From assembly GCA_902587615.1 (NCBI GenBank), contig CACILY010000005.1:1-47218 (forward strand): a DNA stretch of 47,218 nucleotides, in the 5' to 3' direction. The stretch is from an uncultured Prochlorococcus sp. Lineage in GTDB: Bacteria > Cyanobacteriota > Cyanobacteriia > PCC-6307 > Cyanobiaceae. Every line of letters begins with the position of its first letter. The stretch's first letter is position 1. The notes beneath the pieces were generated by a model, which was not told the DNA's origin, did not search any database, and saw nothing but the letters and a program-made list of their open reading frames with translations. A program made the position numbers and the translations under genes. Shown piece by piece: positions 2,984 through 5,950 of the stretch.

Positions 2984-4045
2984 TTAAAATGGCTTCTTAG
3001 CAGACCATACTCTGGTCATAAAGTGTGATTCAGCTTGTATGTCTATAAAACCTGCCGAATCAAGCCGTGAATCTATATTGTCTTTTATGTAATCTCTGTA
3101 AAAGGGTTCATGAAATACTTTGTGAAAATTTTCAAGTATTGGTATGAAGTCAGGGGAATCGGCTATTTGAATGGAGTCAGCTAATACAAAAATACCTCCA
3201 GGTTCTAGTACTCTAAAACATTCTTTAATTACATTGTCTCGTGCTTCTCTTGGCAATTCATGAAGAAGAAAAACACAAGTAACACCTTGCATACTTTTAT
3301 CTCCAAAGTTCATATGTTCAGCATTTCCTCTTACCAATTGGACCATTTCACCACTTCTACGAGATAAATATTTACTAGCTTGTTTTAAATATGCACCAGA
3401 TAGATCTATTCCATAAAGTTCAATTTTAGGGAGAGCACTTCTTATTTGTTGAAGAGTCCTTCCAGTACCTGTGGCTACATCTAATACACTAATTTGGCTT
3501 TTACTTCTGTCTCTGAAATTGTCAAGACCTTTTTGTAGAGGAGATATAACCCTTCTTCTCATAGAGTCAGCTGTCCCATTAAATAAAATTTCTACTTGTA
3601 TGTCATATAAACCTGCTGAATGGTCGCTTAAGTAACCATCAGTTTGGTGATGGAAATTTTGTAAATAGTATTGTGGGTAAAGTCCTTTATCTATATCTTC
3701 TGGCAGGTCGCGAGTTTTCTGTCTCTTTCGACGTTTCCATGTCGTAGGCATGTCAAGCCAAACTAAAGGATATTTTGTGGCCCATTCCAGCCAAGGTGCA
3801 TCAAAAAGCTGGCTTTTGGGGTAAATACCTTTTTCAGCATCTGACCAGTCTTTCTCTTCTAACTTTGAGATTGAAGTACGTAATTGTTCAAACAGCTCAC
3901 CTTTAATTGGGAAATTATTGTCAAGTAGATCAGGTAGCACTAATTCCATTAATTTTGTACTCAGGCCTTTATGAGCTAATCCTGCTAGGCTTTTACCTTG
4001 TTGAAGAGTGTGATATGCAATTTTCGCGAGATTAGTCGATGCCAT
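2984..4045 (-). CDS. Class I SAM-dependent methyltransferase
   Basis: SAM motif I VLDVATGTGRTLQQIRSALP, downstream YGIDLSGAYLKQAS and FRVLEPGGIFVLADS. Confidence 0.85.
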   Translation of the reverse strand: MASTNLAKIAYHTLQQGKSLAGLAHKGLSTKLMELVLPDLLDNNFPIKGELFEQLRTSISKLEEKDWSDAEKGIYPKSQLFDAPWLEWATKYPLVWLDMPTTWKRRKRQKTRDLPEDIDKGLYPQYYLQNFHHQTDGYLSDHSAGLYDIQVEILFNGTADSMRRRVISPLQKGLDNFRDRSKSQISVLDVATGTGRTLQQIRSALPKIELYGIDLSGAYLKQASKYLSRRSGEMVQLVRGNAEHMNFGDKSMQGVTCVFLLHELPREARDNVIKECFRVLEPGGIFVLADSIQIADSPDFIPILENFHKVFHEPFYRDYIKDNIDSRLDSAGFIDIQAESHFMTRVWSAKKPF

Positions 4046-4133: not shown

Positions 4134-4436
4134 TTATTTATTTCTTCTGCAATTTTTATAAGCAGTCTCTTGTAAAGCTGAATTTATTTCGTCCCAGTTG
4201 TAATAAGGCTCTGTTCTTGAAAGATTGTTGAAATGAAGTTGAATTAATGCTGAGGCTTCTTTTGATTCAGAACAAACTTCTGGATAATTCTTTCTTTTTA
4301 ATTGATAATTTAAATTATCAAGATGCTCGTTGAATCTAATTAAAACACTATTAGATTTCTCAGCCTTAATAGCATCATGAGCTTTTGATGTATTAATTAT
4401 TAGTAACTCTAGAAAGAAAATAACTACGATTAACAT
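4134..4436 (-). CDS. Small hypothetical protein with N-terminal hydrophobic segment (start placed at internal ATG, about 100 aa)
   Basis: The ORF-track start (4511) is a TTG whose codons lie inside a perfect inverted repeat; the ATG at 4436 gives MLIVVIFFLELLIINTSKAHD..., a plausible signal/anchor. Confidence 0.5.
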   Translation of the reverse strand: MLIVVIFFLELLIINTSKAHDAIKAEKSNSVLIRFNEHLDNLNYQLKRKNYPEVCSESKEASALIQLHFNNLSRTEPYYNWDEINSALQETAYKNCRRNK

Positions 4437-4447
4437 AATCCAATTAA

Positions 4448-4503
4448 ACTTACCAATAAGAAAGAACTTTACCGAATGGAACAGTTCTTTCTTATTGGTA
4501 AGT
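4448..4503 (-). repeat. Perfect 21-bp inverted repeat (stem-loop, 14-nt loop) downstream of glnA
   Basis: Arm acttaccaataagaaagaact (4448-4468), loop ttaccgaatggaac, arm agttctttcttattggtaagt (4483-4503); arms are exact reverse complements. Confidence 0.95.
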
Positions 4504-4528
4504 CTATACAACAGTTAACTTGATTTAA

Positions 4529-5950
4529 TTAAGCATCGTAATACATGAAAAATTCATGAGGATGAGGCCTTTGTCTTAGTTGCTGGACTTCTTCGTACTT
4601 AATTTCAATCCAATTATTGATGAAATCTTGAGTGAATACACCTCCTTCCGTTAAATAAGAATTATCTGATTTTAGAGCTTCTAAAGCATCATTTAATGAT
4701 GAAGGTACAGTCTTTATATTTGCAAGTTCTTCTGCAGGAAGTTCAAATAGGTCTTCATCTACTCCTACACCAGGATCTATTTGATTCTTTATTCCATCTA
4801 AACCAGCCATCAACATTGCTGAAAATGCTAAATATGGATTAGCTAAAGCATCACCTGAACGGAACTCAAGTCTTTTCGCTTTAGGACTTGGCCCAGTTAG
4901 AGGAATACGCACAGCTGCTGATCTATTCCCTTGTGAATAAACAAGGTTTACAGGTGCCTCAAAGCCAGGGACTAGTCGTTTATAACTATTAGTAGTTGGA
5001 TTTGTAAATGCTAGGAATGAGGGTGCGTGCTTAAGTATTCCACCTATATACCATTTAGCTGTTTGAGATAAGTTTGCGTATGTTCCTTCTCCAAAGAAAA
5101 GTGGCTGGCCAGCTTGCCACAAGCTTTGGTGAACATGCATTCCAGTTCCATTATCATTGAAGACAGGTTTTGGCATGAATGTTGCTGTCTTTCCATATTT
5201 CTTAGCTACATTCCTAACAACATATTTATAAGTCATTACGTTATCTGCAGCATTTATTAGTGGAGCAAATTTCATTCCTAATTCATGCTGACTTGCTCCA
5301 GCAACTTCGTGGTGATGTTTTTCTATGGGTATCCCCAATTGTCCCATTAATAGAAGCATTTCAGATCTAATATCTTGGGCCGTGTCATTAGGCGAAACGG
5401 GGAAATATCCTTCTTTTTCTTGAATTTTGTAGGCTAGATTTCCTCCCTCTTCTATTCTTCCGGTATTCCAAGGCGCTTCAATAGTGTCTACGCTATAAGA
5501 ACAGCCACCCTCGCCTGAGTTATATCTAACGTCATCAAAAAGAAAAAATTCTGGTTCAGGTCCAAAGAAGGCCTGGTCTGCAAGATTCGTACTACTTAAA
5601 TAATTTAATGCTTTTTCTGCTAAGGACCTTGGACATCTTGCATATGGTTCCCCTGTTCTAGGCTCTTGGATTGAGCAAATAAGACTCAAGGTTTTGTGAC
5701 GATAAAAAGGATCTATCCAAGCGGAACTTGAATCTGGCACCATGGCCATATCTGATTCATTAATTGCCTTCCAACCACGAATTGAAGAACCATCAAACGC
5801 AAGACCTTCTTTAAATGATTCTTCTTCGACCATATCCGAAGTGACAGTTAAATGTTGCCACTTCCCGTGTAAATCAGTAAATTTTAGGTCTATTAGTTCT
5901 ATTCCTTCGTCTTTTATTTGACGTAGAACCTCTTGGGGAGATTTGCTCAT
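4529..5950 (-). CDS. glnA: Glutamine synthetase type I
   Basis: [74 protein letters not shown]; 473 aa. Confidence 0.98.

Follow-up and report, generated by a model that had tools for sequence, protein, structure and literature searches.

The closest described counterpart of the hairpin that follows glnA in the Prochlorococcus DNA considered here is the intrinsic (Rho-independent, L-shaped) terminator at glnA of high-light and NATL-like Prochlorococcus and of marine Synechococcus. It has the same place, G+C towards the loop and U on the 3' side, but the present hairpin has no free U-tract, only a weak apical stem precedes its U-rich stretch, and its stem is A/U-rich and 24 bp long. The hairpin can further be likened to the I-shaped terminators, a class named in PMC7406221 and defined by prediction, which are also long hairpins without a U-tract after a stop codon; to the inverted repeats at the 3' ends of chloroplast mRNAs, with which it shares an A/T-rich stem-loop at an mRNA 3' end and a cyanobacterial line of descent; and to the SRPS intercistronic stem-loops of the cip-cel operon (PMC4423207) and of E. 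coli (PMC10667835), with which it shares a stable stem between co-directional genes.

These systems differ in what the hairpin does. Plastid 3' inverted repeats process and stabilize mRNA without terminating transcription, according to Stern and Gruissem (1987) as they are cited in PMC2758277, while stem-loops between cistrons determine the ratio of the transcripts (PMC4423207; PMC10667835). Hairpins of Synechococcus PCC 7002 were tied to longer half-lives when they had a U-tract but not when they lacked one (PMC7406221), which counts against stabilization by the glnA hairpin. The glnA 3'UTR of E. coli and Salmonella, with a terminator and the GlnZ sRNA, likewise has a 3'-end hairpin between glnA and the downstream gene; the terminator of E. 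coli is moderately strong, and deleting it lowers GlnA slightly (PMC9731577). Lineage and downstream gene are however unrelated, and the present locus has no conserved sequence that could serve as sRNA seed. A hairpin plus U-tract ends only 22% of the transcription units of Synechococcus elongatus, and the origin of the remaining ends is an acknowledged gap (PMC13289151). The hairpin behind glnA is of a known general kind.

A long perfect stem behind glnA

In the window, i.e., the whole stretch of 47,218 nt that was analysed, glnA (glutamine synthetase, 473 aa; 4529..5950, minus strand) is followed after 25 nt by a perfect 21-bp stem. In the sense of glnA its 5' arm, which is rich in purines and in A, lies at 4483..4503, its 14-nt loop at 4469..4482 and its 3' arm at 4448..4468 (all minus strand), the two arms being exact reverse complements. 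As RNA on the glnA strand the whole stem-loop extends over 4445..4506 (minus strand) and has 24 pairs including G-U. Another 11 nt separate the stem from the ATG at 4436 of a small ORF, so that the geometry described in an earlier note on this DNA, including a location between glnA and a small ORF with a membrane anchor, is borne out. Within the 3' arm lies a U-rich stretch, TTCTTTCTTATT (4455..4466, minus strand; 9 of 12 T), a candidate degenerate U-tract that the earlier note had passed over.

The 121-nt region folds with -45.5 kcal/mol (z = -9.1), and none of 200 shuffles folded equally well. By chance, perfect 21-bp stems (28 loop sizes) would be expected about 1e-6 times in the window and about 3e-5 times in 1.1 Mb. 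The genome is a 60%-complete draft from a genus represented by three genomes, and the scan of gene ends covered 1.0 of its 1.1 Mb. The hairpin has the longest perfect stem within 444 kb and the top stem score among 831 gene 3' ends, and it deserves its earlier description as the strongest non-coding structure. The score threshold is reached by 12 of the 831 ends, which rules out that every gene end in this genome carries such a stem. Among the other high-scoring 3' ends are those of psbA, psbC, pcb and amt genes, which are counted as highly expressed. The second-strongest gene-end stem (25 bp with G-U; L092:11690-11746) lies between convergent HflC-like and hemL genes.

A genome-wide search for the 21-mer, as had been proposed, found no second copy at up to three mismatches, and as a single-copy element the hairpin is not a remnant of a REP-like or MITE-like repeat. 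The imperfect direct repeat shared by loop and arm, earlier taken to suggest local duplication, is not significant (shuffle p = 0.085). Rfam gave no match at the gathering cut-off, only generic hairpin matches below it; Plastid-psbJ-2 3'UTR scored 24.4 bits against a cut-off of 65.6, and as microRNA hairpins likewise scored below their cut-off this is not homology. In a scan of viral contigs the stem pattern matched once, on a contig of 673 kb, and the match was taken as coincidence.

Recurrence of the stem, with and without a free U-tract

The sequence 3' of glnA was gathered from 77 distinct members of the taxonomic family, 41 with the small gene behind glnA and 36 without. A strong stem, defined as a score of at least 29 within 130 nt, was present at 26 of the 41 junctions between glnA and the small gene and at 15 of the 36 glnA ends lacking it, and a stem unmatched by any of 100 dinucleotide shuffles was found at 30/41 and 21/36, respectively. 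As background, with glnA counted in, seven of the compared genomes had such a stem at 16 of 689 gene ends. A stricter control, co-directional gene ends with a gap of at least 70 nt, gave 7/279 (Fisher p ~2e-21 against 26/41), and the 3' end of the small gene itself never had a strong stem in the same genomes (0/33). The junctions with the small gene are essentially unalignable with each other (E 1e-4), and the recurrence of the stem is therefore not a matter of inherited sequence.

Where alignment is possible, the stem covaries: in G200, G212 and G250, a trio that was chosen for having stems and is small at three sequences, 5 of 15 pairs had changed on both sides and none of 45 cells was broken. 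An alignment of NATL-like sequences held one compensated pair and little signal. The refutation that the earlier note had set up, absence from relatives and lack of covariation, thus fails, since most relatives have a strong stem and the trio covaries. Judging from these comparisons, the structure is selected and the sequence free, and the hairpin is a real, selected gene-end signal. Many of the orthologous stems are only 13–18 bp. Perfect stems of 27 and 30 bp without a T-run were also seen elsewhere, after an unnamed gene in G082 (L113:1531 onward) and after petH in G076 (L116:18633 onward), respectively. One draft genome (G161; 78% complete, 3% contaminated) has two glnA copies on separate contigs (C55 and C74), possibly an artefact of binning.

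High-light and NATL-like Prochlorococcus and many, if not most, Synechococcus genomes have an ordinary hairpin followed by a T-run at the same position behind glnA, a relation that had gone unnoticed in the earlier note. At least four T among the six nucleotides after the stem were found in 6 of 35 genomes with the small gene and in 20 of 34 without it (p = 5e-4), a comparison that counts genomes and not independent events. Of the two other genomes of the genus, G002 has the stem alone and G001 lacks both the strong stem and the small gene, so that the pairing of the two is not obligatory. As the stem is also kept without the small gene in G082 and G028, the hairpin belongs to glnA and not to the small gene.

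The hairpin lies 3' of a coding sequence, as a canonical intrinsic terminator does, and as a U-tract-less hairpin after a stop codon and a stable stem between co-directional genes it also has the form of an I-shaped terminator and of an SRPS or stabilizing stem-loop. It differs from the canonical form in having neither a free U-tract directly after the stem nor a strong G+C-rich stem directly before the U-rich stretch. No T-run follows, T occurs at two of the six nucleotides after the 24-bp stem, and a consensus scan detected no terminator-like site after it; the earlier judgement that this is not a textbook terminator stands. Simple counts of T after the stem miss U-tracts that are paired with upstream A-runs, as at psbA and psbC, and since the tail count understated these, buried U-tracts were then tested. 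The apical stem ahead of the buried TTCTTTCTTATT has only -5.9 kcal/mol, compared to -9.7 to -14.3 kcal/mol for five hairpins of the same genome (psbA, psbC, pcb, porin and amt) that precede real T-runs. The pairing of an upstream A-run with the terminator T-run was observed at psbC, psbA, porin and pcb 3' ends (L187:346-386, L089:19828-19865, L202:12869-12906, L094:2936-2973 and several in L183). At the small-gene junctions the arms are polar as in terminators, with T exceeding A in the 3' arm (p = 0.009) and G+C biased towards the loop (p = 0.007). By position and polarity the glnA hairpin is a derived relative of a terminator, not a canonical one.

The small gene behind glnA

The small ORF (4134..4436, minus strand; 100 aa from the ATG at 4436) is followed by the next co-directional gene, which encodes a methyltransferase domain (2984..4045, minus strand). 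It belongs to a conserved family, overlooked in the earlier note, that is present in 42 of 400 genomes of the taxonomic family and is nearly always found directly behind glnA. A profile search with the small ORF gave nine loci, all Prochlorococcus, in named single-cell genomes, and scans of genome contigs and viral contigs with the single protein gave no matches. A weak relative with one internal stop lies in genus g17 (G413:C3:18159-18446), with no glnA end within the examined flank (L173). The protein matches no Pfam or NCBIfam family. It has an N-terminal hydrophobic, transmembrane helix and a three-helix bundle, an EPxYNWxEI motif and invariant C, EP, Y, W, E, L and C positions, two of these being cysteines. 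A confident AlphaFold2 model (pLDDT 90.6) consists of a long helix and three more helices, and it had no fold match in the PDB at E 0.001.

The start of the small gene is uncertain, because no stop interrupts its frame across the hairpin as far upstream as an in-frame TTG (4509-4511, minus strand) and a start at ATG 4436 would give a hydrophobic N-terminus without basic residues. The ORF may begin at TTG 4511, which would place the whole hairpin in the coding region. Two other genomes likewise have an open frame across the hairpin, and of the 20 genomes that have both the small gene and a strong stem, 15 carry an in-frame stop between hairpin and start. A scan for one promoter type revealed no sigma-70-like site between hairpin and small gene.

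Probable leaky termination and protection, and possible processing, of the glnA mRNA

It is on balance probable that the hairpin is a derived, leaky terminator that also protects the 3' end of the glnA mRNA, the small gene being transcribed by read-through. The hairpin would then be a 3'-end element of the glnA mRNA and the positional counterpart of the intrinsic terminator of other marine picocyanobacteria, drawn out here so that the stem is long, perfect and A/U-rich and no free U-tract follows it. As RNA polymerase copies the stem, some molecules would stop at or just past the U-rich 3' arm and the remaining ones would continue into the small membrane-protein gene that starts 11 nt further on. 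The 24-bp stem would bar 3'-to-5' exonucleases such as PNPase and RNase II, the glnA segment would thus accumulate and the downstream segment would remain scarce. RNase III, which is encoded in the genome, may cut the duplex and help to part the two segments. Leaky termination, read-through, stabilization and RNase III cleavage are steps that we infer from a structure, a conserved position, a covariation and an arm polarity that are seen in the DNA itself. Against this explanation stand the stem and small gene that need not go together in the genus (G001 and G002) and the association with the U-tract that is counted in genomes, and translation from TTG 4511 could melt the hairpin. Of the roles listed in the earlier note, 3'-end stabilizer, processing site and attenuator fit the comparative evidence; that of a repeat remnant does not, given the single copy.

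It is conceivable, although rather unlikely, that the hairpin is an efficient non-canonical intrinsic terminator, acting through the apical stem and the U-rich 3' arm or through the long stem alone, which ends nearly all transcription and leaves the small gene to its own promoter. The polarity of the arms and the canonical terminators at the same position in relatives would agree with this, as would the common and unexplained U-tract-less ends of cyanobacteria (PMC13289151), but the apical stem is weaker than the five hairpins ahead of T-runs, and the 11 nt between stem and ATG 4436 hold no match to the one promoter type that was scanned. We regard it as unlikely that the element is chiefly a processing site at which RNase III cuts the 24-bp duplex and parts the glnA mRNA from that of the small gene. 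Twenty-four continuous pairs suit RNase III and the genome has the enzyme, but the short stems of many orthologs and the persistence of the element where the small gene is missing make it improbable that cutting is the conserved function.

Control of small-gene translation, by a leader hairpin, an attenuator or a hairpin that is part of the coding start, would account for a hairpin placed directly ahead of the start and for a frame that is open through it here and in two other genomes. It is nevertheless very unlikely, given the in-frame stop in most small-gene genomes with a strong stem, the widely varying distance from hairpin to start and the hairpins that occur without the gene. Most improbable is a neutral palindrome whose perfection is maintained by template-switch (quasipalindrome) correction, or a remnant of a small repeat. 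Perfect arms and fast turnover of the sequence would fit such a mutation process, but the element is single copy, has polar arms and is strongly enriched at one place in many genomes compared to 2–4% elsewhere.

Rho was not found in the genus. How cyanobacteria that lack Rho end and protect their mRNAs, especially at ends without U-tracts, is unsettled, and the leaky terminator and 3'-end protector favoured here bears on this question. Since lineages differ at this one gene end, some having a U-tract and others a long stem that lacks it, with the structure kept while the sequence turns over, the locus offers a comparative system, and it points to an unnamed family of small membrane proteins behind a central gene of nitrogen assimilation. 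It is tempting to speculate, and we do so tentatively, that several Prochlorococcus lineages have converted the glnA terminator, along with the presence of the small downstream gene, into a class of long-stem 3' ends without a U-tract. These may form and protect mRNA ends by a non-canonical route, i.e., pausing, RNase III or trimming by exonucleases, and would represent a sequence-free, structure-only gene-end signal in bacteria that lack Rho.
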